Shown: piece after piece, positions 15,895 through 38,385 of the stretch
Numbering within the stretch: the stretch's first letter is position 1
How the letters are laid out: each line of letters starts with the position of its first letter
Source: Mastigias papua
Taxonomy: Eukaryota; Cnidaria; Scyphozoa; Rhizostomeae; Mastigiidae
NCBI GenBank assembly: GCA_964019165.1
Contig: OZ025273.1
Span: 16,722,714-16,786,713, forward strand
Length of the DNA stretch: 64,000 nucleotides
Direction of reading: 5' to 3'
Notes under the pieces: model-generated
What the model saw: only the letters and a program-made list of their open reading frames with translations
What the model was told of the DNA's origin: nothing
The model's database searches: none
Program-made: the position numbers and the translations under genes

Positions 15895-16427
15895 GGGACA
15901 TTCTATGTCAAGTGTAACCAAAAAAAATCCAAATCTGAAATTCATGTCATGGATTTTGCTTGAAATCTGGCATTATGTTCAGAAAACTGATCTATTTTTG
16001 GATTTCAAATTTTTTTGGGATTGGTCAAACGGTTTTGGAGTTATGACCGGTCAAAGTTTTGAAATTTGATGCGACCGACCATTACTCGCGCCACACCTAA
16101 CATTCATATCTTCCTTCATATTCAACCTATAAAGATGGGATTGGTGTCAAATGAAAGCTCTTGCCAAGCTAAAACTGAATTTGCAGTTAAATCAATGCTT
16201 TCTTCTAAGGCCCAGTGGCTGAGATACAATGTTAGTTTTCAATAGCTGACCACGCCCAAATGGCAAGTCCAATTTTCATAAAAAATTTTTTTCTTGAAGT
16301 TGAAATCATATTAAAGCACCTCATAAAATATAAAGATGGGGTGGGCATGGGTTTAAGTACAATCAGTCACAGAATACTGATGAGTCTGTTATCTTGAAAG
16401 ATTTTAAGTTTGTATAGGTTTGAATAC
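15895..16427 (+). repeat. Left long TIR of the Sola-like element
   Basis: The outer 26 bp and the segment from about 16024 (GGTCAAACGGTTTTGGAG) to 16427 match the inverse of the right TIR. The segment in between (about 15925-16023) does not match, so the repeat is mosaic. Confidence 0.8.
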
Positions 16428-16887
16428 CAAATGAGCATGATGGCATTTTTGTATTTTGATAAAAATGTGTTATGTTCACAGAAGATCAATAGGGCAATCT
16501 GTTATAGAAGAGTATTACATATCAGCAATCACTACACTTTCCCATTGCCATAAGCATAATTGAATTGAGGCTTATCCCCTCAGGAAATCACAACTTTCCA
16601 TTCATTTCTGATTAAAGAAACAGTTAGTTAACACATCCCAAATTATTCAGTGTTATGATTGAAGAACTTCCATCTTTTTTAATCATTTCCTGAAAACGGT
16701 TATTCTAACCTGGTGATAGTCAAATCAGGAAACCGACCTCAATAGCACTTGTTTATTAAAAGGAAACAGTAGATCAAGAAAAACCAATAAAATCAGAAAT
16801 GAGGCTTAGAATTTTCAAACAAATTTCAAACTTCGAAAAAGCAGTCACTCTCAAGCAAGGCAATTTTTCTCAATTGCAAGATTTAAG

Positions 16888-19260
16888 ATGGCAGAACAAC
16901 TTTCAAAAGTCACAAGTATTCAAAACAAGAGAAAATATTGCTGTGACCCATTCAAAGTGCATAAAACTAGGAGAACAAAGGATCTGAGATTCGTAACTGC
17001 AGAGCAAGCCAAATGCAATCCATCTTTGGTTCAAGTTGGAATGAAAATATGCACAAACTGTAGAAAACAGCTACAAAAACCACAATGTATGGTTGAGGAA
17101 GAGTTGCCAATCGAGAATCTCCACTCAGAGGGGGAGGATGACTTTGTTCCACCTGAAATCGAGGTTGAAAACTTAAATGAAACTTTAGAGCTGATTGGAG
17201 AAAGCCCTTTGAGTCAACAAAAAGTTAAGTCAAGATCTCGCTACCTTCCTCAAAAAAAGAAGAAAGTGCAAGATGCCCTTGAAAGAAAGTTTGATGCTGC
17301 CTGTGGCTCCTCTCCATCATTGAGTATGGATGTTTCTTCAGATGAGGAAGATGGAATGCCAGGAGAAATTGTGCAAAAGCTAATTGCAAAGTTCCATAGC
17401 ACTGAGAGTAGAAGCGAAAAGATAACTGTTTTGACAATTTTTGCGCAAACATGGAGTCGAAGAAAAATGATGTCTAAATTTGGTTGTTCTCAAAGAATGG
17501 CTACACAAGCAAAGCACTTATCATTCGAAAAAGGCATCCTTGCTACCCCAAATCCGAAAACTGGCAAAAAGTTGCCTGAGAATGTTACAGCGGCCGTAGA
17601 AATGTTCTATCGGCAAGATGACATCAGCAGAGTCATGCCTGGAAAGAAAGATTGCCTAAGTATTCTTCGAGATGGCAACAAGACCCTATTTCAAAAACGA
17701 CTAGTTTTAGGAAATCTTAAGGAAATTTACCTAATGTTCAAGTCACAACATCCATCCATGAAGATAAGCTTCTCAAAGTTTGCAATGCTTAGACCAAAAG
17801 AATGTGTTTTGGCAGGAGCAAGTGGCACTCATTCTGTTTGCGTTTGCACTATCCATAATAACGTAAAACTGATGATGAACGGATCCATGATGGCATCTGT
17901 GACAGCAAACGAAGAAGTTCCAGTCAGTCATTATGGACATGCACTGGCCAAAATGATGTGTAATCCTTCATTACCAAAGTGTCATCTTGGTAAGTGCCCA
18001 TGCTGCCCTGGTAAACAGCCCCTAAGAGAGATGCTTTTAAAGTGCTATGAAGAAAGCGATGTTGATGAAGTAGAGTTTAAGCAATGGACATCCACTGATC
18101 GCTCAAAACTAGAAACTATGGTAGAGCCGCTGGAAGATTTTGTGGAGTCTTTCCTTGAGAAACTTGAAAACCTTAAACGGCACGATTTTATCGCAAAGCA
18201 GCAATCACAGTATCTCAATAAACGAAAAGAAGGTCTGGTTGAAGGAGAAGTTCTTGTAATAGGTGATTTTTCTGAAAATTGTTCGTTTGTTGTCCAAGAT
18301 GAGGCACAATCTTTCCACTGGAATAACAGTATGGCAACACTGCATCCATTTGTTTACTATTTCAAACAGGATGGAGAAGTTAACCACAATAACTTTGTAC
18401 TGATATCAGATTGCCATACTCATGACACCGTTGCAGTCCATCTTTTTCAGAGAGAACTGATGAGACACCTTTCAGAAAAATTTCAGGTTTTGAAAGCTGT
18501 AATCTATTTTTCTGATGGTTGTGCAGGCCAATATAAAAATCTAAAGAATTTTTGTAACCTGTGCTTGCATGAATATGATTTTGGAGTGCCAGCTGAATGG
18601 CACTTTTTTGCCACAAGTCATGGAAAGGGGCCATCTGATGGCATTGGAGGCACTATCAAGAGAGAAGCGACCAAGGCAAGTCTTCAACGACCTTACCACG
18701 ATCAAATTTTGTCACCTCTGAAGCTATTTCAGTTTGTTGATTCCCATTTAAAAGGGATCAATGCAAAATTTGTTACTACTGCCGATTGGTATTCAGAAGA
18801 AGAAATTCTTCGTGAGAGATTTCAGTCTGCTAAAACGATTGCAGGAACACAAAAATTACATTGCTTCAAGCCAATTTCCAAACATTCCCTTCGTGTGTCG
18901 GAATACAGTGACAGTGAAGAAACAAGGGAAGTTTCAATAGTCAAAGCAGGGTGTGGTCACATTGAGCTCAGTAAGATCACTGGTTATGTTGCTGTAGTTT
19001 ATGACAGCGAGTGGTGGGTGGCATATGTTTCTAGCATTCAGCCAGGAACTAATGAAGTTACAATAAGTTTCCTGCATCCTCATGGCCCAAACCCATCATT
19101 TGTGTCTCCTCCAGATCCTCCAGAAGAGCTGGTAGTTGATGTGTCAGACATACTTGTGCATCTTGATCCAGTCACTGTTACAGGTCGCACATATACATTA
19201 TCAAAAGAAGAATCACAAGCAGCAAGCACATCCTTAAGAAACAGATTACAGATGAAATAA
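16888..19260 (+). CDS. Sola-like DDD transposase, 790 residues
   Basis: An intact ORF fills the space between the long TIRs. The N-terminus has a Cys-rich motif (YCCDPFKVHK ... GMKICTNCRKQL). The middle carries a conserved block (FSKFAMLRPKECVLAG, THSVCVCTIH) and CHLGKCPCCPG. Putative catalytic Asp residues are about D460 (VIGDFSENC), D543 (FSDGCAGQYKN) and D584 (ATSHGKGPSDGIGG). The second copy at 58167 shares the N-terminal and middle blocks, which confirms a repeated family. With no stops it may be active. The DDD assignment is my inference from motif conservation. Confidence 0.75.
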   Translation: MAEQLSKVTSIQNKRKYCCDPFKVHKTRRTKDLRFVTAEQAKCNPSLVQVGMKICTNCRKQLQKPQCMVEEELPIENLHSEGEDDFVPPEIEVENLNETLELIGESPLSQQKVKSRSRYLPQKKKKVQDALERKFDAACGSSPSLSMDVSSDEEDGMPGEIVQKLIAKFHSTESRSEKITVLTIFAQTWSRRKMMSKFGCSQRMATQAKHLSFEKGILATPNPKTGKKLPENVTAAVEMFYRQDDISRVMPGKKDCLSILRDGNKTLFQKRLVLGNLKEIYLMFKSQHPSMKISFSKFAMLRPKECVLAGASGTHSVCVCTIHNNVKLMMNGSMMASVTANEEVPVSHYGHALAKMMCNPSLPKCHLGKCPCCPGKQPLREMLLKCYEESDVDEVEFKQWTSTDRSKLETMVEPLEDFVESFLEKLENLKRHDFIAKQQSQYLNKRKEGLVEGEVLVIGDFSENCSFVVQDEAQSFHWNNSMATLHPFVYYFKQDGEVNHNNFVLISDCHTHDTVAVHLFQRELMRHLSEKFQVLKAVIYFSDGCAGQYKNLKNFCNLCLHEYDFGVPAEWHFFATSHGKGPSDGIGGTIKREATKASLQRPYHDQILSPLKLFQFVDSHLKGINAKFVTTADWYSEEEILRERFQSAKTIAGTQKLHCFKPISKHSLRVSEYSDSEETREVSIVKAGCGHIELSKITGYVAVVYDSEWWVAYVSSIQPGTNEVTISFLHPHGPNPSFVSPPDPPEELVVDVSDILVHLDPVTVTGRTYTLSKEESQAASTSLRNRLQMK

Positions 19261-19349
19261 TCTTCTAAAATAGAAATCCTACTAACATGATACTTTTTAC
19301 CAAGGGTAAACTATCTTGCAGCAGCTTGTATACATACAGAGTACATGTA

Positions 19350-19877
19350 TTGTATGAAGACCTGTACAAACATGAAATCTTTCAAGATAACACAGACTCA
19401 TCAGTATTCTGAGACTCACTGTACTTAAACCCATGTCCACCCCATCTTTATATTTTATGAGGTGCTTTAATATGATTTCAACTTCAAGAAAAAAATTTTT
19501 TATGAAAATTAGACTTGCCATTTGGGCGTGGTCGGCTATTGAAAACTAACATTGTATCTCAGCCACTGGGCCTTAGAAGAAAGCATTGATTTAAATGCAA
19601 ATTCAGTTTTAGCTTGGCAAGAGCTTTCATTTGACACCAATCCCATCTTTATAGGTTGAATATGAAGGAAGATATGAATTTTAGGTGTGGCGCGAGTAAC
19701 GGCCGGTCGCATCAAATTTCAAAACTTTGACCGGTCATAACTCCAAAACCGTTTAAGGTAGGGGGCTGAAATTTTCACAACAGACGTATCTTTGCACCAG
19801 AAAATTTTGTACAAAATTTGAGGAAAATCGAAGGGGTTGAAAATTTTGAAGTGGTTACACTTGAAAAAGAATGTCCC
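19350..19877 (-). repeat. Right long TIR of the Sola-like element
   Basis: Inverse partner of 15895-16427. Landmarks shared with the left arm are GGTGTGGCGCGAGTAA, the complement of TGATGCGACCG and the final AGTGGTTACACTTG...AGAATGTCCC. Confidence 0.8.
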
Positions 19878-20540: not shown

Positions 20541-20851
20541 ACTAAGGCTAATGTCAGTAGGAAACATTGGCTAAACTACTGGCATCGGTGTAACCATATA
20601 TGTAAAAGAGGTTTAACGCATGAGATTGATGCACTTCCACGTATTCCTATTTGGAGTGCTCTTATCTCTCAGATCATGAGAAACTGATTGTAATTTCCCA
20701 CTTCCAGACATTTCTGGATAGTGGGGTTCAGAGTTATCTTGCCCTACTGGCAGGGTGCGCTATTTTTAGATGGTTTATGAATCTTCCCCTTTCCCGATTT
20801 GATCTTCACTATAAGTATAAGGTCGATTTGATTTTGGTGAGGAAACACTGA
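20541..20851 (+). other. Possible 5' margin of the endogenous virus
   Basis: Short open stretches here (for example KRGLTHEIDALPRIP near 20607 and the ORF at 20651-20851) run in different frames up to the viral N-terminal ORF. They could be decayed leader or polyprotein sequence. I recognise no domain. Confidence 0.25.
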
Positions 20852-20929
20852 TTTGTATCATTCTGGCACTACCACCGATTGAGTGCTGGAGGCGGCCGTG
20901 TTACAGACGGACGTTATAGAGCCATTAGC

Positions 20930-21913
20930 ATGCCAGCTGATAACAACACTTGCTTTTGGCATGCACTCGCTCATGTTGCCAATAATCATGCTGGCTCCAA
21001 TAAGTATACGGTCTCTTCTTTGAAAGAGATGTACAAAGTCGCCGCACCATCTTATGAAAGCCACTTCGTCCCTATGCTTTATTCACCTACTGAATATGAA
21101 GAGCTATTGGATAAGAGGACAAGAGAACATCTCACCAATGAAGACAAGGGTGAGATTGATGTAGCCCACGTGATATCATCTGAGCTACACTTTGGTATGT
21201 TTATCATTGATGATACAACTGAGAACAATAGTGGTTATCACGTAGGTAGACAAGTCAGCTCAGGCAAGTGTATTATTATTGTTAGACATGGACACGCTTA
21301 TGTACGTCAGGTCCCTCTACCAGCCGTGGCACTTGAGGGCCTAGCATCTTATGTGTCAGTCCTTGCTGAGTTGTCAGGTAATGACTCACCAGCACCTAGT
21401 CATTGGTTCAGTGACCTTGACGCAGAATATCATATTGTGGACACTGATGTCAAAGAAGTTGAAGAGTCCGGTGCGGAGACCGAAGAGCTTCCTGATAGCG
21501 ATTATATTCAAGAGATGGAGGAGGAAGAACTCCCAATAGGAGTTAACAAACAAGCCCCAATCATTGTTGAAAATGAAGCCCATGACGACTTATCAACCAC
21601 AACCAGTTTTCTGGAAGCCATACAAACCACAGTCTCTGGCTTGTTTGCTGGGCATGATTACGCCCGCTATACAGCAGCAGCAGCCCCAATGGTCGCATTC
21701 ACCTGTTCATTATACACCCTGTTCAGAGGAATCGCTACAGGTGGATGTAAGTGGTATGACTACGTGATACACATCACAGGAATGGTCACCCAGATAATGA
21801 CCCTCATAGCGTCTTTTTGGGTGGTGACAAACCATGCTACCATAGCATCTGCACTGGTCAAGCTTTGTCTTTCCGCCCTGAAGAATATAATGTGCAGTAT
21901 GGGCATGATATAG
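20930..21913 (+). pseudogene. Viral N-terminal region: OTU-like cysteine protease plus membrane segments
   Basis: The frame is open from 20852, with the first ATG at 20930. Near the start the motif ADNNTCFWHAL resembles the D-x-x-C active-site block of OTU-fold cysteine proteases. About 120 residues later IIIVRHGHAYVRQVP could supply the catalytic His. An acidic linker (ETEELPDSDYIQEMEEEELP) follows. Two hydrophobic stretches near the C-terminus (AAAAPMVAFTCSLYTLF and VTQIMTLIASFWVV) look like membrane anchors. The OTU call rests on two short motifs only. Confidence 0.5.
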
Positions 21914-21916
21914 GGT

Positions 21917-22263
21917 TTGGCCATCAAGTTTGGAGCTGCACTTGCAGCAGGAGCACCCGTAGCCTCAGAGCATTTACGTTCCGTCACGAAGATAGGAAGT
22001 GTATTCTCAGCCATTAAGCATTTTGGGGATTTCCTTACTGACATTATCAACGCTGTCGCCGGTCTTATTGGACTTGACCTTACTGATCGCAGTGACTTGA
22101 ATAAGACCATACTCGCTCGTACCAAGAAGCTTCATGATTACCTTGCAATGCCAAGTAGTAGTTGGACTGGAGACAAATGTCAGGAGATTGAGGCATATTC
22201 CCAAGATTGCCAAGCTATGGTCCAGACCAATAAAGCCTGGTTCACACAGTGTCAATCTGCAGC
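21917..22263 (+). pseudogene. Viral segment between membrane region and helicase
   Basis: After a frameshift the polyprotein continues in another frame with FGAALAAGAPVASEHLRS and an amphipathic stretch (FGDFLTDIINAVAGLIGLDL). This position is occupied by 2B/2C N-terminal membrane-binding helices in picorna-like viruses. The MITE at 22266 cuts it; related sequence resumes at about 23004. Confidence 0.5.
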
Positions 22264-22265
22264 TA

Positions 22266-23001
22266 TCATGTCTATCTGCACCTAAACCTTTGATGTTAGA
22301 CACGATAGATACCATGTGAACATGCGGTGTTAATAACAACATGCCACTTTGGCACACTTTAATCCAGGTGTCTAAACGCGGCCAAATATGAAAAAGTTTT
22401 TATATTTAGACACGGGGGTGTTAAGTGGCACCTAACTGTCCTTTGTGTCTCTTTTGTTTTAAGGAATTTAAACTATTTTCACACTATGACACATACCAAT
22501 ATCACAACTTTAGTTGAAAGTGGAAGTGGATGAGGTGACTGCAACCCGCCCAAGATTCGGTGAAAATCTTTCTGAAGCTGTTCGCAAATATCCTGCACTT
22601 TATGATAAATTGGACCCTGGCTTTAACGATAGGCACAATAAAAGTAATGCCTGGGACAAGCACTGCAAGGGAACTGAACAGTGAAGGATATCCTCATATA
22701 AAGCAAATAACTGCATAAATCCCCACACTGGTTTCTCCTTGGACATGTCTATTTACCCCACTGCTGTGTGCACTTTCTCCCACTGGACCACTCTTCTTCT
22801 TTAGTATAAAAGTACCAGCAGAAGGGGTGCAGTGGCATACTTTCGATGAAGCTCTTCCATATTGAGCGCTGCAAAGGCGCAGATCGACACCATCCAACTG
22901 GACATGTTGTTTACTTCATGAGACATTTTGTTATTAACACCGCATGTTCACACGGTGTCTATCATGTCTAACATCAAAGTTTTAGGTGCAGATAGACACG
23001 A
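22266..23001. mobile_element. MITE inside the endogenous virus, carrying a MADF fragment
   Basis: Inverted repeats of about 78 bp share TGTCTATCTGCACCTAAA and GAACATGCGGTGTTAATAAC. The best-fitting flank is TA at 22264-22265 and 23002-23003, though the end is ambiguous because the flanks are palindromic. At about 22524-22683 the plus strand encodes a partial MADF domain (LSEAVRKYPALYDKLD, NKSNAWDKH), ending in a stop. It is probably an internally deleted Harbinger-like element that kept part of its MADF gene. Confidence 0.75.
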
Positions 23002-23003
23002 TA

Positions 23004-23546
23004 GCCACATATTGACACAGGCGTAAGGGGGTTGGTGACACAGTAACCCTTCAAGGTCTCATGAAGTTGGTGAATGATGTCGACGGCCAATTGAGATCAA
23101 TCCATGAAGAATGATTGAGCAGGACTAGAAGATCGGTTCCTGTTGGATTGTATATATGGTCCGAACATGGGGATTTAGGTAAGACAGACTTTGTAAGACG
23201 CATAGCCCAGGTGATGAAGTCTTGGGTAAAAGGATTTAATGACAGGGTTTACAGTATCCAGCCGGCCGCAGTGCATTTTGCTGGCTATTATGGTGAGCAC
23301 ACCATGTATTATGACGAAGTTGGGGCTATAAGGAACACTGATGAGAAGACATCTCCTTTCACTCAAATAAACAACATAATTTCTGGGAATACTGTTCCAA
23401 TGTTGAGTGCATCATTGGGAGGTAAAAATCAGATCCACAAGCCACACTTGGTGATCATGACATCGAATTGTGATATTCGCCACATAGACACCAAACTATC
23501 AGAGACCGACTGTAAGGCATTAATATCTCGTATGATGATCTACTAG
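23004..23546 (+). pseudogene. Viral SF3 (2C-like) RNA helicase, first copy
   Basis: An ATPase of superfamily 3, acting in viral RNA replication on membranes. Walker A reads SEHGDLGKTD, the Walker B-like block YYDEVGAIRN, and motif C is VIMTSNCD about 50 residues later. Nonsense codons at about 23113 and 23544 flank the domain. The same frame continues to 23780 before a frameshift. Confidence 0.8.
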
Positions 23547-23573
23547 TTTTGTGACGATAATTTTGACCCTACA

Positions 23574-24585
23574 GTGAAAGATGCAAGACAAAACCAGCCC
23601 CATAGTAAACCCAATTTCTCTCATATTAGATTCCGGAATGATGAGACAGAACTGACTATTGATGAACTCGTGGATGCTATATGCGGGAAATTGGGGTCAT
23701 CGCTAGATACTTATAGGGCTCTCTCAGATGAAATCATTATCCAGTCCTTATGTTTACAATGGCAAACCCTTATGTGTTGACAAGAATGTCTCTGCTGATG
23801 ATACGAAATTCTTACACTGGTTTGCTGGAAATCCAGGAACGGGACAGTCTAGAAGTGCCGTCCCCTTCGTTAGAGAGTTGACATCAATGATAAAAGTTGG
23901 ATATCATGCCCCTTCCAGCTTGTCTGAACTGCAATCCATTAAGCCTAGCATTGGTGACGTTTTTGTTGTTGATGACTTGTTCGATTTATCATCTGAGACG
24001 CATCAGATGTTGTTAATACAGTGGTACAATTCACAGCCAATGATGTGCAAAGTTATAGCATTGTCTAACTATGGCCCAGATAGCATAAATATCTTCTCAC
24101 CTGTTTACAAGCTCAAGAAGAATTGTAGACCTATTGATACATCTAAGCTTAAACCCGCAGTGCCATGGCATATAGGGTTTATGATTTCAGATGAGGCACG
24201 GTGTGTAGTGAAGACATATGGTGATTGGCGAGATCTTGAAGGCAAAGAATTCCATTTGGATTGCATACTGCGAGACTGGGTTTGCGCTGATTCTGGTGCA
24301 GCATATCCTACAGTGCTAGACAAACTGCCTGAAACATTGCCTGTCACAGCTAAGGAGGCAGATATATGGTATGAGACGAATGTTGAAGGGCCAGGACTCA
24401 AGAGTGTGCTCGCCAGAAGTATGAAAAGCTGCTCACTCCACACAATGAAAATGTTAGTAGGCTTTCATATTGAGGACTTTGATATTTCTAGCATGGGCAC
24501 TACTGTTTCACATTTTGCCTATCCTGCCGCTAAGACGCTCGACAAACCAAAGATCTATGTGAGAGTAGGTTCCCGGTGTTGGTAA
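23574..24585 (+). pseudogene. Viral second SF3-like helicase domain
   Basis: After a frameshift near 23740 a second P-loop domain appears: FAGNPGTGQSRS with Gln in place of the essential Lys, DVFVVDDLFDL as acidic Walker B, and VIALSNYGPD as the motif C position. It follows the first helicase directly. The Lys-to-Gln change could be post-integration decay or a naturally inactive duplicate. A nonsense codon at 24583 ends the ORF; the frame continues beyond it. Confidence 0.7.
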
Positions 24586-24600
24586 TACTTTGATGGTACC

Positions 24601-25154
24601 ATGTATAATGGGCGTGAAGATCATCCCCCACTCAGGGTGAAGACCTGGATGCCATTGACTATCACCCTGAAAGATGGTACTGTTTGCAAAGTTACAGACA
24701 GACAAATACAAGAAGTCCATGAAGGTGAGATTTCTTATGAGACAGATTCAATGATTTTTCTGGTTTTGTCACGTGAAAAGAAGAGAAGTACAAAGGCTTG
24801 GGAGAAAATATACGCATTATACCCTCCATCTACAGATATAGTTAATCGAGGGTTTACTGACAAGTTGCTGAGAGCTGCAAAGAGTATTAGGTGAGTAATG
24901 TGTGAATACTTAGGCCTTTCACACTCATTACTCTCTTGGTCATATGTCTGCCCATAGTGTACAAGCTGTGTGACTATGATATAGAGAAACCAAAAGTGCC
25001 AAAATCCGATTTTAAGTGCGGAAAACGTTGGCTGGAAGGAAGTGAAGTCACTTATTGTGATGATTGCCCTGGCAGTCCAGACTACAACTGTGCAAAGGTC
25101 CGGGGTAAGAAAGAAGTACAGCAACATTGTAAGTGTGAACTCAAAAACAGTTAA
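24601..25154 (+). pseudogene. Viral linker between helicase and protease (VPg position)
   Basis: Two overlapping frames continue the polyprotein: 24601-24894 (VKTWMPLTITLKDGT) and 24936-25154 with a Cys-rich, basic stretch (YCDDCPGSPDYNCAKVRGKK). This is where picorna-like viruses encode 3A/VPg. A Tyr in a basic context is present, but I cannot identify a VPg with confidence. Confidence 0.35.
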
Positions 25155-26568
25155 CGTTTCAGACCTGGAAGATTCGGCCATGGAAAGAACATTGCACGAG
25201 GCAAGGTGCATTCTGGGTGAGACAGGTTACACCCATGACAGTTGGTCGACGACCATGACTATAAAAGATGGTAAATATAACATTGGCCACAACTGGGTCG
25301 ACAATCAAGTAGACGTTTCAATCGACCTTCCTGATGTGAACTATTCTGCTTCATCATTTCATTCAAATATTTGTAAGCTGAGGAACCATACCACCGGTTC
25401 TAGACTACATGGCTTACTCTTACATGAGTCCTTAGTGAGATATCCTAATCACATTTACAATGATGATGATGATGATGTTAGGCTCACATATAAGGGGATT
25501 GAATACCGCTTGCACACATTAGCCAAAGTCACTTCCAACGATGCGAAAGATAACATGGTCATCAATACCACGGGGAGTGTGGATAGAGTCCCAGGAAGTA
25601 AGAGCCTGATAAGACACCTCCTCCCTGTTAGTGAACTCCCAGAAGTAAATTATGTTGGAGTTCATGATCCTGATGGCAATGTAACTGTGGAGATGCCTTA
25701 TAAGTACTACTTAAAACTCCCGCAGGCATACCATGATGGAGACACTTGCGTTGAAGGAATGGCTGGGTTATGCTCATATGGGGACGTAGCGGTTAGGTTT
25801 ATGCGACCAGGAGCTTGTGGTGCGATTATCACAGCAAAGATAGGTTCGGCAGAGAAGTTAATAGGCCAGTTTACTGGCGTTAAGCCAATGCAAAGAGCCT
25901 ATGTGTTTCCAGCGGTAACAATAGAAGAATGGAACCACGTTGTGGCTGTCACAGAAGAAACCATGTCAATAGAGATCAATGAAATGCGAGCCAATTACGT
26001 GGTTCCAAACACAGCACGTAAAGGCACTACTGTATACGTCCCATTGAAAGTCGTCGACAAAGGTATCCGTCCTAAGGAAGCAGAGCATCACCTTACCGGT
26101 GGTTTGACCACCATCACTAGTGTTCCTACTAACCATCTACTGATAGACCAGTGTTGTGCAAAGAAGCCAGCGTTAAATATCCATTTCTCTGACATGTATG
26201 GGGTGCTTAAGTACCCTGTCATGCACAATGAGGAGAAAGAAAAGAAGTGTATTGACAAAATCCCTCCTGATGACATGGGGCGCAAAGCTGCGGAGAATGT
26301 GAAGCCGCTTAAAGCTCATGACAACACCACTTTCTCTGAACATCCATGTAGTGAAGAGCAGACCAGGATAGTATTCATGCACAAGGCCGATGAATTAGGG
26401 GATTATTGGAAGACAAAAGTGTCCCCGAACTATCAACCGCTTTCGGTGGAAGACGCCATTTGGGGAAATAAATCCATCCCACCAGTGGACCTGGACACCT
26501 CTACAGGTACAGCTTTCCAGATGCTTTTTCCCGGTAAGACAAAGAAGAAGCAATCATTGGGGGAATGA
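25042..26568 (+). pseudogene. Viral 3C-like (chymotrypsin-fold) cysteine protease and RdRp N-terminus
   Basis: This long ORF holds the nucleophile motif PGACGAII (GxCG type) at about residue 256, with YVFPAV beyond it. A candidate catalytic His lies upstream in YPNHIYN. Family members process the polyprotein. After the protease the ORF continues into the polymerase fingers (NYQPLSVEDAIWGN, LDTSTGTAF). A TGA at 26566 interrupts the frame, which then resumes. Confidence 0.7.
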
Positions 26569-27535
26569 GCTGATTTCCTTGGTGATGCAGGAGCATGGCT
26601 CAAGTCAGCGATTGCCCAACAATGGGACCAATGGAAGAGGGGACAGCTTTGGATGTTACCAGGGAGTTACAGTTTGAAGGCTGAATGTCTTCCATTGGAA
26701 AAAGTACGGAAGAAAAGAATAGTCAATGTCTGCGACCCCGTTACCACGATAAATAGTCGCAGGCTCATGATGCCTATCCAAACAGTGTTCACTAGCCTGG
26801 GAGCTAAATCGCCATATCATCTCGTTCTCAACCCTTACAGTGACATGAATGGATTAGCAGAAATGTTACTGAAATTTGATTTACACTATGATGTTGATGT
26901 CTCCGGTTTCGACCTTACAGTTCCTAAGTCACTACTGGAATGCGCAGGGGTTTTCAACAAAAGATTCACCAGCACTGGTAATGTCCTCAGTAATATGATT
27001 GACATGTTCTTTTTGACTGTCTCGAGTTCACCAGTTGTAGCAGGTAAAACACTTTTAGTAGGCATGGAGGTGTCCCCTTGGGGATAACATGTACCAGCCT
27101 TATAGACAGTCAGTGTATGCAACTCATATTTTATTTGGCAGCTGCAAGAATGTATGGCTATCACCTCATGCCAACAGAGTATTATGAGAGTGCGTGGACG
27201 TATTCCACAGGTGATGACACAGTGCTCTCGAGTAGTGACTCTCATCACAGGTCAAGTTGTAGCGGATTTTGCGAAGAAAGTGTTACTGATGGAATTTACT
27301 GATGCTAGTAAAGCTACGTGAGTGATGGCAACACCATTGACTGAGATCTCATATGCCTCACGGAGGTTTATGCCTATTAAAGGGCATGGAAACCTCTTTA
27401 CTGGGGCTTTAAAGACCAAGTCCATATCATCTGCACTTTGTTGGAGTGAGACTACTGTAGTGACACGTAAACATTGTAGCATAGGCCATTCCATAGTCAA
27501 TGCCGATTTTCTTCTTTTCATTCATTCGCATTCTC
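26569..27535 (+). pseudogene. Viral RNA-dependent RNA polymerase
   Basis: Right-hand polymerase motifs appear in order. A motif F-like block lies at about 26700-26790 (ECLPLEKVRKKR). Motif A is DVDVSGFD at about 26893. A motif B-like region (GMEVSPWG) is followed by a frameshift at about 27085. Motif C is YSTGDDTVL at about 27206, and a motif E-like ISYASRRF follows another frameshift. The GDD triplet is intact but the gene is broken in at least two places. The viral sequence stops where the LTR-like repeat begins. Confidence 0.85.
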
Positions 27536-27536
27536 A

Positions 27537-27902
27537 AATCGCACACCTGGGACATCACCGTATGTCACTTCTGTCATAACACATCTGGTCATTCCTCTTC
27601 TGTTGTTCCACACGCAAACATCGCCACACGAATCTATTCAACAATATACTAACAACAAACTAACCCTTCCTTTACGTAAATCATGTTTATTTTGGGTTGT
27701 TCAATGGTAATGTATATATCCATGTAATTTATGTTGTATAGTCAGTCAGAGTAGAGTCAGAGTACCGTCAACATCAACGTCTCCTCTCTCTGCCTCCATG
27801 TTCTCTGCACGTTAAATAATGATACGCCATCAACGGATCAACGAAGGATGTCACTGAACGAACATTTGCAGCTTATAGGATCCACCATCTCACGTTCCTA
27901 TA
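27537..27902 (+). repeat. LTR-like direct repeat, left copy (366 bp)
   Basis: It matches 28364-28729 at a constant offset of 827 bp, with about seven differences in 366 bp (about 98% identity). Directly after it, ATGGTGACCGAGACGTGACC looks like a tRNA primer-binding site, so the pair may be LTRs. Clean TG...CA ends are not visible, so the true start may be truncated here. Confidence 0.65.
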
Positions 27903-28363
27903 ATGGTGACCGAGACGTGACCAGAGAATCCTTCGTTGATCCAGCTTCATCAAGCAAGCAAGACAACCAACAACTCAAAACAAACATCGCAGGTTTGGCA
28001 GCACTTCCTACAAAAGCTGGTGCACACGCACGCTAGGTCGGCAACATTCCGCGCCCAGAAAATGTTCGCAAGCAGCAACTCATCTTACGCACTCGACTCA
28101 CCATAGTGCTTCAACAAGTCAGCAACGCAGGTTCCTGGTCATCTTACTCATAAAACCTTGTACACTCGCACAATCATCGAACGCTGACAGTCTGGTTCCT
28201 GGTTGATCCAATACACAAAACCTCATAAACGTCACTAGAGTCGCCGTGACTCCTTTGAACTATAGTATGTTTGGACACTTATTTTATATTCTCCGTGTAT
28301 GTCATCTTAATATCGTGTATTTTCAAGTGTATTCTCACTTGCTGTATTCATGTTACTATAATC
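27903..28363 (+). mobile_element. Short internal region between LTR-like repeats (TRIM-like)
   Basis: 461 bp with a primer-binding-site-like start and only a short open stretch (QQLKTNIAGLAALPTKAG). The size and lack of pol suggest a terminal-repeat retrotransposon in miniature, or a deleted LTR element. A segmental duplication is the alternative. Confidence 0.45.
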
Positions 28364-28729
28364 AATCGCACACCTGGGACATCACCGTACGCCACTTCTG
28401 TCATTACACATCTGGTCATTCCTCTTCTGTTGTTCCACACGCAAACATCGCCACACGAATCTATTCAACAATATACTAACAACAACCTAACCCTTCCTTT
28501 ATGTAAATCATGTTTATTTTGGGTTGTTCAATGTTAATGTATATATCCATGTAATTTATGTTGTATAGTCAGTCAGAGTAGAGTCAGAGTACCGTCAACA
28601 TCAACGTCTCCTCTCTCTGCCTCCATGTTCTCTGCACGTTACATAATGATACGCCATCAACGGATCAACGAAGGATGTCACTGAACGAACATTTGCAGCT
28701 TATAGGATCCACCATCTCACGTTCCTATA
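28364..28729 (+). repeat. LTR-like direct repeat, right copy (366 bp)
   Basis: Partner of 27537-27902. Both copies include the same start MSLNEHLQLIGSTISRSY, which is therefore likely an accidental ORF of the repeat. Confidence 0.65.
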
Positions 28730-28732
28730 CTA

Positions 28733-29028
28733 CTGATAGTACCATCATTACAGAAGTTGTGAAGAATGCACTCAATGAAGCAGCACTATGCGGCCTTGTG
28801 CAGACAAGTGGCTTGCCCATAAACCCAGTATCACATAAACAATTCATGGTGGACCTTGCTGACCAGGTTCTGACCGCAGCCAGCGAGCATGATATTAAAC
28901 CAGCGAATACAGTATTTGTACTCGCTGATTTGGAGCTACCAAAAACTGTTGCAAGAGTAATTGATTTGAGAAGAATCAAGAAAGATCGTATCGATAGAGA
29001 GATGGAGTCTGTCGTTTCAGAAAGATAA
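28733..29028 (+). other. Open segment of unknown origin after the repeats
   Basis: It encodes STIITEVVKNALNEAALCGL and a basic C-terminus (VARVIDLRRIKKDR). The helical NALNEAALCG stretch resembles thumb-end sequences of picorna-like polymerases. It could therefore be the 3' continuation of the viral RdRp displaced by the LTR-like insert. This is inference only. Confidence 0.3.
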
Positions 29029-29048
29029 AGGTCCATAGATTCCAATGC

Positions 29049-29342
29049 ATGATCAAGAGTAAGGTGGACTTCAATACGCTCCTTAAGAGCAGAGACTTCT
29101 GCAGCATGTTGGACATCCTGAGTGGTGGGCAGCGTTATTGGGTTGAAGGAGCCCAAGTACCCGCACAGATTTATTCAACGATCATCTGGGTTGACATTGC
29201 CAAATATTTTTCCGGGGATGAAGTGACATGGATAGACAATAGAGTGTTTATGATTTGTGACGCGCTTAATGAAGACGCTGCGGAAGGTCATAAGCTGCTC
29301 CTGTACTCTAGATATTTCGATTATGATTTAGTGCATGCTTAA
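29049..29342 (+). CDS. Hypothetical 97-residue ORF
   Basis: It starts MIKSKVDFNTLLKSRDFCSM. No family recognised. It lies between the candidate viral tail and Harbinger B and might belong to either. Confidence 0.2.
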   Translation: MIKSKVDFNTLLKSRDFCSMLDILSGGQRYWVEGAQVPAQIYSTIIWVDIAKYFSGDEVTWIDNRVFMICDALNEDAAEGHKLLLYSRYFDYDLVHA

Positions 29343-29365
29343 GAAGACGCGTTGGTAGAAAAACA

Positions 29366-30453
29366 ATGGACGATCTACTGTTAGAAGTGCACCATTTGAG
29401 AGACATTGACGATGAGGAATTAATGATGTTATATGATCTAAATCATCGTCAAGTGGATCTCCATGGACATCTGCTGTATTGGCAATATGATAAATTTGAT
29501 TTGGAGCAAATGAGCGAAGGTGAATGTTTGGTAGAATTTAGATTTGCCAAAGAGGACATCAAGGGCCTAGTCAACACACTGAGAATCCCTCAAACGATAA
29601 GGTGCTATAATGGATGGAAAGTAGATGCAGTTGAAGCTCTTTGCTCGCTCTTTGCATATGCCTGAAACGACTGGCTTATCCTTACCGATATTGAGATTTA
29701 GTGCCACGATTTGGCAGGCCAGTCCCACAGCTGTTCACAATAGCCACCACAGTTATCGATACGATTTATGCCACGTTTGGTTATCTTTTGAGGGACATGA
29801 ACCAACCATACCTTTCCCCAGCAAATCTAGAAAGATATGCTGATGCTGTCCATACAAAAGGGGCGGCCCTGGACAACTGCTGGGGTTTTATTGACGGAAC
29901 AGTCAGGCCAATTTGTAGACCAACTAGAAATCAACGGATTGTTTATAATAGCCACAAGAGAGTCCATGCTATCAAATTCCAATCCGTTGTCACCCCGAAT
30001 GGCTTAATTGCACACCTCTTTGGGCCTGTTGAAGGACGTAGGCATGACAGCGGGTTGCTTGCAATGTCAGGGCTATTAGAGCAACTTCAAGAGCACTCTT
30101 TTTCCCAAGATAGACAACCCCTTTGTATCTATGGCGACCCTGCGTATCCACAGAGAGTTCATCTAAAATGTCCCATAGTAAGAAGGGAGGCTTTGACAGA
30201 TGAGGAGCTTGCCTTTAACTCTTCCATGAGCAAAGTCCGTGTTGCAGTGGAATGGGTCTTTGGGGATGTCATCAAGTATTTTAAGTTTGTTGATTTTAAG
30301 AAAAACCTTAAAATTGGGATGAGTGCCGTCGGCAAAATTTACATAGTCTGTGCCCTTTTGAGAAATGCCATGACTTGTTTGTATGGCTCATCAACAGCAA
30401 ATTACTTTGGTGTACAGCCACCAAATATTAATGAATACTTTGGGTATGGTTGA
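29366..30453 (+). pseudogene. PIF/Harbinger transposase B, nearly intact
   Basis: The N-terminal ORF starts MDDLLLEVHHLRDIDDEE. The frame shifts after VDAVEALC (about 29645) and resumes at KRLAYPYRY with one TGA stop (about 29691), where the family has Trp. From 29701 the catalytic part is open. Acidic residues are in GFIDGTVRPI, GRRHDSGLL, IYGDPAYP and VAVEWVFGD. The subfamily differs from elements A and C. One frameshift and one nonsense codon are the only lesions seen. TIRs were not located. Confidence 0.85.
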
Positions 30454-30963
30454 TTTTACTCAAGTTGACTGGCCACAGTTCTTTCTCATTCGCCTATGCT
30501 CTACTCCTAAAAATGCTTTATTAAAAGCCACTATTTGTGCCAAGGTTCATACACACATGATAAATTTAGACATTGCAGATTGATTTTTCACAACGCATTT
30601 AACCATAATCTGTCAACAAGCTAAAACTGCAGCATTTAAAGCTAAAAATGCAGTATTAAAGACTTTTATGAAATAATGAATTTACGAGTTTTCAAACTGA
30701 AAATTGGTATTTTGAGGCTTATCATATAATATATGAAGCAAAATATGATTGAAATGTAACGTTATCTTACGACAAGAAACAAAATTCATATAGGCACTCT
30801 GATACTCCAATAAAAAAGATTTTCTGTCCTTTGGTACAATGAATAGAGCGTAACATGAAACTACAATGGTATTTTTCATTCCTATTTCAAAACACATTCA
30901 ATTTTTTTGTGGAGGGGGCTTTTCAAATAATTTGTTGCTTTGAAGCACCTATTAATCCATGGC

Positions 30964-31788
30964 TTACGTACTTGAGTAGAACTTTTCAGTCAAATTTTTC
31001 AGTAAATCAAGCAACAACTGATTTTGCTGAGAAATTTGACTGAAGAGCACTTGCTGCTGCTGAATTAAGCTAATTAACCTATTTTCTCTTTCTTCAGTAG
31101 CAGCAGATTCTTTTTGTCTGCTTTTGATTTCTTGTTCCTTGATTGCCATTTCTTGCTTTTTCAGTGCAATTTCTTCATCCTGTGCTCTTTCTTGTAAGAT
31201 TATTTTCCTTTCCATCAATTTTAGTTCCAGCCTTTTTAATTCGACCTCTTCATTGTGCCTCCCTTTCAGATAGTCCATTGCTTCCCTAGTTCTTTCTGCT
31301 CTCTTTTTGATTGGTCCCCCTATGTCTTCTCTCTCCCTACTTTCTCCATAGCTCTCCATTGCTCTCTTCCTAACATTCTCAGATGCTACTTTCTCCCTTT
31401 CTACTTCCTTGCTTTTCCTCTCATCATTCCTTGCTATTTCTTCCTCAGCTCCTTCCATTCTGCCGATTATTGTTTCTAACGCCTCGTCCAGCTCTGACGT
31501 TTCCGGGCTTATGCCACTTGCCCTTTCCTCTGCAGCCATTTTTCTCTTATAGTCCCTAACCAATTTCAAAAAATGATCTCGGACAGCCCTCTTATCAACA
31601 ATAAAACGTGGCTGAGGGATGCTGTTTAAATTTGTTGCAATCTTCTCCCAACAATTGCCATGTTCGCGAGAGCCAATTTTATATTGGTAGGGTTCTACAA
31701 CTAGCATCTCCCTACACAACATGATGTTGTGGTCTTTGGTCCAATTCATTTTTGGCCTACGGAATAGTTTAATGTTCAGATTTAGCAA
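30964..31788 (-). CDS. Myb/SANT-like DNA-binding protein of Harbinger B
   Basis: The minus-strand ORF converges on the transposase. I prefer the internal start at MNWTKDHNIMLCREM. An N-terminal Myb/SANT-like trihelix (CREMLVVEPYQYKIG, CWEKIATNLN, VRDHFLKLVRDYKRKMA) precedes a long charged coiled coil (MEGAEEEIARNDERKSKEVE, LKRLELKLMERKI) and a Gln-rich end. The accessory gene of Harbinger elements has this structure. The ORF is unbroken. Confidence 0.8.
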   Translation of the reverse strand: MLNLNIKLFRRPKMNWTKDHNIMLCREMLVVEPYQYKIGSREHGNCWEKIATNLNSIPQPRFIVDKRAVRDHFLKLVRDYKRKMAAEERASGISPETSELDEALETIIGRMEGAEEEIARNDERKSKEVEREKVASENVRKRAMESYGESREREDIGGPIKKRAERTREAMDYLKGRHNEEVELKRLELKLMERKIILQERAQDEEIALKKQEMAIKEQEIKSRQKESAATEERENRLISLIQQQQVLFSQISQQNQLLLDLLKNLTEKFYSST

Positions 31789-33080
31789 AGAATAGACCTA
31801 CTTGACAGATAGCTATTTCCTATCCAAGTATAGAAAGCAAACTGGCAACATATGGCTACAGGCCTCAACTACCCCCATTCACAATTAGATGCTTATTAAA
31901 GCGCAAATTTCTAGGAGAGAAATTATAAAGGTTAAAGTATACTGAATATTACGGTGCTAACTGAGTAAATTGGAAAACAGTAGCAGATCGTTTGCAAACC
32001 ATTTTAATTCTCATTATCTCACGTGGCCTAACACGGAAGTTAAGGTCGTAAAGGGGGCTTACAACATGCTAAATCATCGCAATCTACACTTTGTAGTAAA
32101 GTACATTTCAAATAACAAAGTAATGTTCTCTAACAGTTATTGCTGCATACAAGTAGTGCATGCTAAAGTTACGAACGTCTGGCTTTTTTGCGGTGGCCTT
32201 TCAGCATTTTCTTGGCTTGCCATCACGAGAACTCTTCGCTGTAAAAGCAATCAGTTTATTGTATCACATAAGAAACAAGATACAATGCTATATTAGGTAC
32301 GAGTTGTTGAATCGAAAAGCAATGACAATACTTACTCAATGTTATCTTCGGGTAACGTAACGTCAGGCTGTCATTTTTACTGTTCTGAAAGTCATGAAGA
32401 CGCTCTTGTCACAAGGGGGATCACCCGGTTGCATTCGTGTCTAGACCTCTCAGCTGCGTCTTGTTAAAGCGCGTCACGAATCATAAACACTCTAATCTTG
32501 CAGCTAGGGACGTCACAGGTGGTGTTAGCAAGAAAATGCGCCATGCCGATAGATGGAATAGGGATGCCAAATGCATAGCAACCATGCAGAAATTTTCTGA
32601 TTTAAACGTTCGTACGTTTAAGCATTTGTTTCCCCCCGTTGGAGATCCGCCAGCTAGCTGCAGCTATGCAGGATATGCCACTCACCAACAAGATACTTCT
32701 CGATGTGCAAGCGGCACTGCAACAAGCCAATAGTTGGGATGAGTTCATAAATGACCTGGCTATTTCAATAATGAGTAGTCCAACCCTCCATGGAAAACAC
32801 ACAGCACACCCACATTTATATTCACAGACAAAGTGATGACAGCAAGCAATGAGACAGACAATACACCAAGAATAGACATAACGCAGTAGCTGCTCACATG
32901 GGATGGGACAATGGGACAATGAAGAGGCATAACGTAAACACTAAATGTGGACAAATTACAAAACGGAACCAATATGAACAGGTGAACCACACATTACGAA
33001 ATCAAAGTACAGTACAGAACTAGTACTCTAACAATATTTTGCCATCCAGTGCTGTGCGGATATGCCATGAAGGGTTCCGT
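31789..33080. other. Unassigned stretch right of Harbinger B
   Basis: Short ORFs (32437-32733, 32639-32836) have no motif I recognise. The right end of Harbinger B probably lies here, but I could not find matching TIRs. Confidence 0.4.
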
Positions 33081-33084
33081 AATT

Positions 33085-34329
33085 GAGAAAAAAGAAAAGA
33101 ATGGGTCACCCACCACTGATGAGCAGGAAAGATAAGGGATGGTTTATCAGAACTTTCAAGAAAATGAGAGATGAGAACCCAAATGTGAAACTCATTGGTG
33201 TTGCAAAAGAGTGGGAAATCACGAATGTTAGCTACATAACCCTTCTACTCTTTGGTGCCTAATAGACGAGAGGGTTGGAAACATCCCCAAAACCTAATTA
33301 GCAGGGGGTTTGGAATAAATGGGGGGGGGTTGGAAAATTGCCGTAAATTTAATAGACAGGGGGTATTGAAAAAGCTTCTAAGCAGTGCAACTTTTTCTCA
33401 AACCAATAATAGCAAATAAGGAAACACGAAGTAAAAGAAAAATGATTATTCACACCATTCATAAAAGTATTGTTATGAAAGTTTTCCCAAAATTTAATAG
33501 TCAGGGGGGTTGGAATAAGAATGTCTTGGCTGGAAACTTTTGAAAAAATTAAGTAGTGGGGTGGGATGTCTATTAGGCACTAAAGAGTACGTATGGTAAA
33601 TGATGCTGGGTATCGGTGGTTGAAGCCTAGAAGAAAAGGTCTGCTTCAGCTGCAGACAGAAAACAGAGGGTGCGATATGCAAGAGAAGTGCTGAGGAAAT
33701 ATGATGAAAACTTTTGGATAGACGATGTTCTTCTCTACCTCCATGGCGTTTCATTTAGGCATAACAATAGACCTTATAATGATGCTGTTTGTGCAGGGGG
33801 CAAAATGTGGAGGACAAGTAAGGAAGGTCTGAAGTATACAAGTAAAGGGTCAAAGACTTTGCCAGGTGGCCATACTTTGCATCTTTTGGTGGGAATTTCC
33901 CATTCATTAGGGGTAGTTTTAGCCGAGGACTATGAAAAACTGAATGGACATTGGTTCTCCCAATTTGCTCATAGAACTTTGCAGAAAGTACTAATGGATT
34001 GTGCAGTGGTAACAAATAAGGAGACACTGCTATTTGTTATGGATAACTATTCAAGTCAACGAAGTACACTGGCAAAAGATGCATTGGACGAGATAGGTGC
34101 CGATCTCGTAGAAATACCACCTAGGTCACAAGACTTGAATTCGATCGAAAAAGTGTTTCACAATATCAAGCGTAGTCTTAGAGAGGGGGCATTAAGACAA
34201 AGGATACATAGGGAGGATTTTCAGTCATTTAAAGAAAGGGTCTTGGGTACACTGCTCCAATACAATGCATCTATCATTGACCATACCATAGAGATGCTTA
34301 CAATGTATAGTCAAGAATGGTGGATATAG
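33085..34329 (+). pseudogene. Tc1-like transposase pseudogene (DD34E)
   Basis: The N-terminal DNA-binding part (MSRKDKGWFIRTFKKMRDEN, VAKEWEITNVSY) lies at about 33115-33235. After a MITE it resumes with LKPRRKGLL and, from 33670, an open catalytic core: FWIDDVLLYLHGVSF, LFVMDNYSSQ and PPRSQDLNSIEKVFHNIK. The last Asp-to-Glu spacing is 34 residues. Frameshifts near 33100 and 33640-33670 plus the MITE inactivate it. TIRs were not resolved; (AT)n follows immediately. Confidence 0.85.
33248..33587. mobile_element. 340-bp MITE in Tc1-like gene, TSD TA
   Basis: The ends CTCTTTGGTGCCTAATAGAC and GTCTATTAGGCACTAAAGAG are inverted repeats, flanked by TA at 33246-33247 and 33588-33589. The interior has repeated GGGGGTTGGAA motifs. 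It is Tc1/mariner-type by TSD. Confidence 0.8.
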
Positions 34330-34355
34330 AGCTAAGTACTGAATTTACTTCTTGC

Positions 34356-34599
<244 letters not shown>

Positions 34600-34622
34600 A
34601 AAAGTCTGTTGGTACTGTAAAT

Positions 34623-35325
34623 TTTAGGGCTGGATAACTAAGTTAGATTCTGAGCTGGACACAATAAAACAACTTTTAATTGACAATGGATATCCAGAAG
34701 ATGTCCTTGTTTCTTGAATTAAGGAAAAACTAGCCAACATTTCATCAGAAAAACGGTTTGGTCCTGAAAAGTGCCCGGTTTACCTGAAAGTGCCCTGGAT
34801 TGGAAATGTTTCATCAAAATTTGAAAACCAAATCAATAAAGCCATTACATCTTGTTTCTATGCTGTGAAGCCCCGTGCGGTTTATAATACGAGGGTCATG
34901 CTACCATCTGCTAAAAAAGATAGCGTTCCTACCACCCAAAAAAGTTGTGTAGTTTACGACTTTTCGTGCTGATGTGAAGCTCGGTACGTAGGGCACACTA
35001 CGCAGAGGTTAGCAGATAGAATAAAACAACATGTACCCACGAGCATCAGGACGAAAAACACTACAACAAGAGAACAGCCGCCTCATACGTGTAAAAACTC
35101 TAATTCTAAAATGAAAAGTGATTCGGCCATAGGACAACATCTTCTAACAAATCCAGAATGCGCCAAAACATATACAGACGATAATTTTCGGATCATCGGG
35201 CAAGCAAGATCGTCCTTTCATTTAGGTGTTTTGGAATCGGTTTACATCAAGACTCAAAACCCAGTCTTGTGTAAGCAAAACGAGTTCGTTTTTCACTTGG
35301 ACTCTTCAAGTAAACAATGGTGAAT
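34623..35325 (+). pseudogene. Penelope-like element fragment: RT tail and GIY-YIG endonuclease
   Basis: The frame reads VYLKVPWIGNVSSKFE and FYAVKPRAVYNTRV (the RT-to-endonuclease linker). After a TGA at about 34970 it reads CEARYVGHTTQRLADRIKQH, the GIY-YIG motif of Penelope-like endonucleases. It ends FHLGVLESVYIKTQNPVLCK. Stops at about 34717 and 34970 are the only breaks in this frame. The 5' part of the RT is missing. Confidence 0.8.
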
Positions 35326-35436
35326 AGGTGCTAATTGGCCAATCATAGGGCCAAATAGACGCATTATTCATCATATCACGTGCACCCGCATCTGGCTATA
35401 TATTTCGGTTCACCTTTCGGTCGTTATCCGACGTTT

Positions 35437-35477
35437 CATACTCTGACGAGTGTCGGACGAAAAAAGCTTTCAGTATG
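35437..35477 (+). ncRNA. Type I hammerhead ribozyme motif in the Penelope 3' region
   Basis: The core CTGACGA (35443-35449) and GAAA (35459-35462) are in order. Stem I is CATACT (35437-35442) with AGTATG (35472-35477). Stem II is a short GT/AC with a GTCGG loop. A minimal stem III (AAA/TTT) leads to the expected cleavage point after TTTC at 35471. Minimal type I hammerheads are known in Penelope-like elements. Confidence 0.7.
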
Positions 35478-35504
35478 CCAAAAGAATGTTTCCACTTTTT
35501 CGTG

Positions 35505-35569
<65 letters not shown>
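35505..35569. repeat. (AT)n microsatellite at the 3' end of the Penelope fragment
   Basis: A pure AT tract starts directly after TTTTTCGTGC of the element. The flank to its right repeats the segment at 34500-34551. Confidence 0.95.
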
Positions 35570-35572
<3 letters not shown>

Positions 35573-35769
35573 CAATGTTACAGCACACGTTATGGTGTTT
35601 CTAGAATACAATATGCTATAGTACATTTAGAAGTGTCTTTCTTCATAATTCTTCAAAATGGTACAGATTGAATATCAGCGCCTCGTATCTGATTAAAATC
35701 TAAAAAGTGGAATCCAGGATATACTATGAAATGTTTCGTCTTACTTGGCAACGTGACACATTTTGCTCG

Positions 35770-36331
35770 AAATTGAGGGGGATACACCCTTATTGTTATT
35801 TCTCCTACCTTCTTCCATAACTTTGTTGATACTTTGACTTCTGTTCATCAATATAATACAAGACAGGTTTGTAAGGGCGACATTTTTATGACACATAAAA
35901 ATACACTGCAATATGGCTTAAGGTCCATTAAATATGCTGGTGCAAAATCCTGGAATGAAATTCCTGCTATTATTAAACAATCCCGTTCAGTAGTGATTTT
36001 CTGTCATGAAATGAAACAGCATCTTTTTTCAACCAAATACCAATCTTGAATATCTCTATCAAATAACTGTCTTCCTTTTCTGATCAAGTCTAATTAAGTT
36101 AACATTTGATGAATAAGAAGGTCTTTGCTCAGGGGGTGCTCTCCCCTTGATTAGTCTATCTACTGAGAGATCTCCTCCTCAAATAAATTCCTCTCTCTAG
36201 AAATGTCCATTTCAGTAGTATGTATAATCTGTGTTCTATTTAGGTGCTATTGTATTTGTTGTTTTTAGTTGTATTGTTGTCAGACTTTTGTATGTAGTGG
36301 AATTTTAAATATGAAAACTTGAACTTGAACA
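35770..36331 (+). pseudogene. LINE 3' fragment (CR1/L2-like C-terminus and tail)
   Basis: The ORF at 35834-36049 reads HQYNTRQVCKGDIF and LRSIKYAGAKSWNEIP, the C-terminal tail after RT in CR1/L2-type LINEs. A 3' UTR follows, ending in the short tandem GAAAACTTGAACTTGAAC, typical of these tails. The rest is lost by 5' truncation. Confidence 0.7.
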
Positions 36332-37086
36332 AACAAAATCCCTATGAGGATGCATTGGCACCAGCCACCGGGGTGTTGAGAGCGCCTCCTCCATCAGCCA
36401 CCATTGTTCCTGGGGGGAGGGGGTTGCCTGTAAGATGTGAAATTAAGGAAGTTCAGATGAATATGGTTTGTTTCACTTTACCCGTAGGTGTCCCAAGGAC
36501 TTTTGGCGACTATTTTAGGTTACTGGTCGAAATTCTAAAATCATATCCTTTACAGATATCTCCCTCAAAGCATCAGTCCAATAAAAAGTCAACACACTGA
36601 TTTAAAATTTGAGATCTATTTCTAGATTTGATACTTGGTTGTCATGGTAACTAAAAAATAATGTGATTTGAGTAGCATCACTAAGTGAGCATTACTACTT
36701 GCAATAAGAGGTTCAAGCTGTGATAATAATATATCAACTAAATCCCAATGACCTGGAGAGTGATTTTATCTTGTTGGATTTCTAAAATGTGTTGTATATA
36801 TTCAAATATTTTAGGAAGTGTCAAAATTACCTTCCCAGAAGATATTTTTGAAGAAGAACCTACAAGGTAAATGCATAAAAGTACAAGTTATCACAAAGGG
36901 GTTAGGGTTAAGGTTAGGGTTAGTACTTGCACTACATGAAAAGACACATTTTAAGACAAATGAGTTTGAAGTTTAACACTGTGCTCAAAATTGATTGAAT
37001 TGTCAATAATGTTCAATATGCCATAAAACCATACCATAATCAACTCATATCAATGATTCTTTCAATTAAATGTTAACCTGATGTAC
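36332..37086. other. Unassigned, with a short telomere-like array
   Basis: An ORF at 36319-36600 (GVPRTFGDYFRLLVEI) has no recognised family. At 36898-36923 GGTTAGGGTTAAGGTTAGGG forms about four TTAGGG-type units. Confidence 0.5.
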
Positions 37087-38126: not shown

Positions 38127-38130
38127 TTTA

Positions 38131-38385
38131 TATAACATCCCTGCACTTGCAACTCTTATACTTTAAGGAGCAGGTTCGACATTGACAAGATGAGATGCTT
38201 TTCGAACACAACACAACAATAATTTTATCTCATCAACACAACATTACATTTTCTCATTCGCTATATCTATATGTATGTTCCAAGCACAATCAGATACCTT
38301 TTTATCTTCGTATCCCGGGGTTATAACATTTACAACACGGGGGTTGCCTAATGGATTTTAAGTGATACATTGTCACAGCCTTACA
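38131..38385 (-). repeat. Gypsy 3' LTR
   Basis: 255 bp, same length as the other LTR, with four differences (about 98.4% identity). This implies a fairly recent insertion. Confidence 0.95.

Follow-up and report, generated by a model that had tools for sequence, protein, structure and literature searches.

The viral element in the window

The window analysed here is a stretch of 64,000 nucleotides on contig C10 (C10:16722714-16786713), in an assembly of 172 contigs and 346.8 Mb. Ten stop-to-stop frames of 353, 123, 143, 77, 292, 102, 82, 527, 172 and 84 aa lie on its + strand between 20852 and 27302. The order along this strand is a leader with an OTU-like motif, a membrane region, a helicase, a second P-loop domain, a 3C-like motif and an RNA-dependent RNA polymerase (RdRp). 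The leader, helicase, protease, RdRp and post-RdRp parts are each broken by stops or shifts. The viral pieces and the inserts that interrupt them are:

20630..21910, + strand: leader and OTU-like region, two open pieces split by a stop (L047 and L035 by tblastn; conserved Cys and RHGHA boxes)
21914..22237, + strand: membrane-type region, putative function (L047 and L035 frames match to 22237; P0018 aligns across)
22249..23018: MITE-like insert, 770 nt, 95-nt inverted arms, 91% complementary (repeat analysis; ends read)
23025..23789, + strand: first helicase domain with Walker A, Walker B and motif C (PF00910, E 1.4e-13 on 23115-23543; alignment)
23746..24627, + strand: second P-loop domain, Walker A altered here (PF00910, E 0.0061, below cut-off)
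24652..25479, + strand: transmembrane and presumed VPg region, labelled from position (copy alignment)
25480..26565, + strand: 3C-like protease region, GxCG box included, then the beginning of the polymerase region (GxCG in 7/8 rows)
26569..27456, + strand: RdRp, motifs F, A, B, C and E, in three frames (PF00680, E 2.9e-14 and 0.022; alignment)
27458..28729: 1.27-kb insert, CTACTG on each side, two 366-nt direct repeats (7/366 mismatches between them)
28730..29240, + strand: C-terminal part of the polymerase and post-polymerase start (tblastn with L030, L032, L038, L043 and L045 frames)
29241..32493: Harbinger-type DNA transposon, AAT on each side, inverted ends (PF13359, DDE_Tnp_4, E 5.7e-26 on 29695-30450)
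32494..32803, + strand: last recognisable viral piece, post-polymerase, before the presumed capsid (tblastn with L030 and L039 frames)

The first-pass annotation had described motifs in this order on one strand, at 20852-27535, broken by frameshifts, stops and a MITE. The order is borne out by the PF00910 and PF00680 matches on the + strand, and the breaks by the broken frames and the 770-nt element with its inverted arms. The span is real but too narrow. Frames of L047 and L035 match the window from 20645, those of L030, L032, L038, L043 and L045 match it again at 28702-29234, with alignment ends running a few codons into the 1.27-kb insert, and those of L030, L036, L039 and others at 32491-32803 (tblastn). 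Viral coding begins no later than 20645, is taken up again at 28730 after the 1.27-kb insert and at 32494 after the Harbinger element, and is last seen at 32803. Six queries found no match in 32804-40000 at E up to 0.05, and the structural piece had no match anywhere on C10 in the genome search, so the presumed capsid part is missing from the window copy.

If the 366-nt repeats arrived identical, their divergence of 1.9% gives the window copy a minimum age of ~1-5 million years at assumed rates between 2e-9 and 1e-8 changes per site and year. The repeat pair at 27537 was considered as simple LTR ends and rejected, as the insert starts earlier, at 27458. CpG depletion was rejected as a clock, the element (0.48-0.57) being equal to the window (0.52).

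Domains and virus type

The PF00910 (RNA_helicase) match is carried by a 143-aa piece and the stronger PF00680 (RdRP_1) match by a 172-aa piece (26569-27084), whereas the match of the 84-aa piece with the GDD box (27048-27299) is below the cut-off. The E-values and the further genomic matches (28 for the protease piece and 18 for the RdRp piece) exclude a chance match. An RdRp profile built from 11 rows had 17 PDB matches with an E of 0.001 or less, led by 2ckw (9.7e-10), 2uuw and 1khv, followed by Norwalk virus and, more weakly, by entries named 'genome polyprotein'. We take the first three to be calicivirus enzymes and the weaker entries to be picornaviruses. Our analysis confirmed a decayed positive-strand RNA virus sequence on the + strand of the window. 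The proposal of a picorna-like RNA virus endogenised in an animal genome holds, and such a virus would be more exactly calici/picorna-like.

The other domains were assigned with less direct evidence. A Cys box and an RHGHA box are conserved between copies in the OTU-like region, yet Pfam gave no OTU family for the 5' piece at E <= 10 and the best PDB match had an E of 0.73, to an unrelated protein. The GxCG box of the 3C-like region is likewise conserved in the covering rows of the copy alignment, with no Pfam or PDB sequence match for the region. The protease-like and 3C-like blocks reported earlier thus stand as conserved motifs, not as sequence matches to known proteases. The OTU, protease and capsid folds, as well as the family placement, are inferred rather than demonstrated.

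The first helicase frame of L047 weakly matches a '2C' structure (E 0.071). For the second P-loop domain, weak PF00910 matches below the cut-off were also seen in L046 (0.015) and in a second stretch of L047, and none in L035 or P0010, which are probably one and the same copy. Its Walker A motif is intact in L046 and L047 and altered in L035 as well as in the window. An hhalign comparison with the first helicase domain found nothing. The second P-loop is likely, rather than proven, to be a distant second ATPase domain.

Downstream of the RdRp, other copies carry a long frame of up to 1070 aa (L039) that aligns across several of them. Pfam and PDB searches gave no capsid match for this frame. 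To our eye, its first half presumably resembles a jelly-roll capsid and its end a minor capsid protein; the frame probably encodes the capsid. In L036, three ~40-nt spaced repeats (2549-2647, minus strand) directly follow the last viral frame; seen in this one of 47 loci, they perhaps represent the viral 3' untranslated region.

Comparison with known viruses

Among known viruses, the layout is closest in order to that of Nylanderia fulva virus 1 (NfV-1) and the Solinviviridae. The 10.9-kb NfV-1 genome has an OTU-like domain upstream of the helicase, followed by a 3C-like protease, the RdRp and a capsid region (PMC4980443, PMC3970965). The same order is found here, with the OTU and protease by motif only. 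The helicase and RdRp order of the Solinviviridae is present, and the downstream frame is conserved without a capsid match. These are free viruses for which one helicase domain is described; the comparison is of descriptions, not of sequences. A literature search found no description of two helicase domains, which does not prove that none exists. Caliciviridae give the best PDB matches of the RdRp profile, but these are weak (9.7e-10 at best), and the OTU-like leader and the second P-loop domain set the element apart from them.

Scans of IMG/VR found no free relative of the virus, consistent with the earlier suggestion that the lineage may be undescribed. Protein database searches returned 18 proteins, all from contigs of 0.34-3.9 Mb; the queries were pieces, and length limits placed full-length polyproteins outside their scope. 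One of these database proteins, P0017, covers 93% of the OTU piece (window 20852-21910) at 98% identity and is listed on a contig of 367,771 bases. It perhaps represents the other haplotype, as the genome search showed no such second copy.

Copies elsewhere in the genome

In animals, long positive-strand RNA virus inserts are uncommon, and the first-pass annotation had described whole non-structural regions as rare among endogenous copies. The element is nevertheless not a single rare insert. Searching the genome gave 29 matches with the protease piece and 19 with the RdRp piece, each including its own, and these counts are lower bounds. Merged by hand, the matches form about 20 loci in the 347-Mb genome, most of them separate lineages. 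The count of 20 takes a trio on C21 and a pair on C19 as one each, and C13:3032092 and C13:3036435, which are 4.3 kb apart and may be one rearranged locus, as two. The structural and OTU pieces gave 12 and 21 matches, confined to C10, C13, C18, C19 and C21, a few of which are loci beyond the 20. Recent duplicates share their flanking frames (100% for the C19 pair, 97.8% for L040/L041).

Most near-complete copies of the protease region carry stops, and some copies have long open frames. In the alignment, the stops of independent copies fall in different columns. A functional recoded stop, considered for the frequent single TGA, was rejected on this ground. One stop column is common to L002 and L007, and the remaining rows vary there.

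A transposon or host gene family, which the first-pass annotation had proposed checking as a better match, was rejected: the pieces match RdRp and helicase profiles instead, and neither an integrase nor a reverse transcriptase was recognised in the viral pieces scanned. That result also bears on the idea of an inherited virus-derived element that still moves in the germ line like a transposon and is under selection between moves. Purifying selection between copies, the long open frames and the clustering of the loci would all agree with such an element, but the lack of a recognised integrase or reverse transcriptase in those pieces and the stops in most near-complete protease-region copies make it very unlikely. 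Copying by retroelement machinery, proposed earlier, is plausible, but a poly(A) tail with a target duplication was found at no viral end; among the 3' flanks of five copies, one had a run of eight A, and no duplication was identified.

Divergence between the copies

The protease region was compared over 19 rows, giving 171 pairs, of which four with fewer than 60 shared codons were dropped. In the three pairs of the C21 trio, pS is 0-0.003 and pN 0.002-0.011. The 164 pairs outside the trio have pS of at least 0.65 (median 0.83) and pN of 0.07-0.36 (median 0.23), with pN/pS below 0.5 in every one. Leaving aside the dropped pairs and counting the trio once, this set holds 17 lineages. For the RdRp, 17 loci were tried and one dropped (46 codons), and pS is at least 0.69 in 116 of the 120 pairs; in the C19 pair and the C21 trio, pS is about equal to pN. 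In the structural frame outside duplicates, pN reaches 0.52 with pS of 0.51-0.98, suggesting weaker restraint on protein change.

Saturated synonymous sites together with restrained protein change indicate that the lineages parted under selection on their proteins, that is, that they diverged as working viruses before becoming DNA. The copies would then record many separate endogenisations rather than one duplicated insert. If one ancient insert had been multiplied by duplication inside the host genome and its copies had diverged as host DNA, the clusters on C13, C18 and C21 would be expected, and the C21 trio and C19 pair are indeed true duplicates. However, neutral DNA would have similar pS and pN, in contrast to the 164 pairs. 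Contig labels are also mixed on the tree of 19 rows, requiring nine changes with 4 of 16 inner branches well supported, a descriptive count made with no shuffled control. A single integration was rejected in view of the many loci and of saturated pS with low pN/pS, and we consider this account very improbable indeed.

Genomic location and host

C13, C18 and C21, together 13.2% of the genome, hold 18 of the 20 loci, and the same number falls in three stretches summing to 7.66 Mb (2.2% of the genome). All but one of the 20 are no more than 4.2 Mb from a contig end, which may not be a chromosome end. When the loci were placed at random 200,000 times on 22 contigs assumed to be equal, the top three never held 18 loci; the loci are not wholly independent and the stretches were defined after the loci were seen. 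One OTU match, at C21:3.27 Mb, falls outside the stretch as drawn. Such strong clustering is unexpected for random insertion and speaks against our preferred explanation.

The 16,455-bp contig C172 has COX1 on one strand with COX2 diverging from it, TGA inside COX1, and a tRNA with anticodon TCA (SeC in the bacterial code of ARAGORN, Trp if TGA is Trp). AGR codons presumably stand where COX1 has Arg. A frame with DNA-polymerase-B-like motifs was recognised by eye and had no Pfam hit. This layout agrees with features given for medusozoan mitochondria in a published study, namely a cox1/cox2 polarity change, trnW and polB (PMC3519871), and the host is therefore most likely a medusozoan cnidarian.

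A second organism is present in the assembly. Five COX1 matches in a repeated arrangement (G000:C121:135416-214708), which we take to be alveolate-like, are cobiont or symbiont mitochondrial DNA. The viral copies could in principle come from such a symbiont or contaminant genome, and symbiotic dinoflagellates are known to carry multi-copy positive-strand RNA virus inserts (PMC10235124). Yet the contigs bearing the copies are 14.7-17.6 Mb long, the mitochondrial contig C172 is medusozoan in layout, and the copies sit among transposons, as on C10 (17.57 Mb), where the viral copy is both flanked and interrupted by them. We take these transposons to be of animal type. A foreign source is extremely improbable.

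Origin and meaning

The window element is a non-retroviral endogenous viral element: it has viral core genes, a host chromosomal location and decayed frames. With a probability of about 85%, we regard the window as holding one dead copy of a family of such elements, derived from repeated infections by an undescribed virus group. Undescribed positive-strand calici/picorna-like viruses would have repeatedly infected the germ line of this medusozoan's ancestors. At each infection a viral RNA of roughly 10 kb, whole or in part, would have been copied to DNA and inserted, with a resident retrotransposon most likely supplying the reverse transcriptase. The inserts then decayed neutrally as they gathered stops, frame shifts and transposons, and duplication of host DNA multiplied two sets of them. 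The copies persist almost only in the three stretches near contig ends, perhaps through retention in these special regions.

Some 20 inserts from one group of viruses, all in this genome, provide a fossil record of the group in an early-branching animal phylum. They also reveal a lineage of viruses whose layout is unusual and for which the collections searched yielded no relative. They make it testable whether cnidarians keep virus DNA at particular chromosomal places as antiviral memory. A bolder and rather doubtful proposal is that the three stretches are an archive of RNA virus infections (~17 of them), perhaps a piRNA-producing antiviral memory, and that the archived viruses constitute a new family whose members have two P-loop domains of helicase type.

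Two reports offer comparisons. The dinoRNAV elements of Symbiodiniaceae are also many positive-strand RNA virus inserts in one genome, of which 14 may be whole, but they differ in deriving from a ~5-kb virus and in having dinoflagellate hosts; none turned up when the authors examined 151,782 scaffolds of aposymbiotic cnidarians (PMC10235124). Horseshoe crabs are likewise marine invertebrates with RNA virus inserts; four species together carry 20 elements, of which 11 resemble chuviruses (PMC12282059). For cnidarians, our literature search does not prove that no such inserts have been described.

Three further observations concern neighbouring sequences. In L035 (C13:3032092-3038000), the 5' part of a viral element begins no more than ~0.1 kb beyond an RdRp fragment, an arrangement that points to tandem, rearranged or recombined copies. 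Upstream in the window, a 3.7-kb element at 16027-19754 has an intact 816-aa frame, matched by no Pfam family, between inverted ends of ~400 nt that are 95-97% alike; it appears to be a recent DNA transposon of unrecognised type. Near one viral copy, a 576-aa frame (L044:2737-4464) combines a SWIM zinc finger with a YqaJ recombinase domain (8.6e-13).
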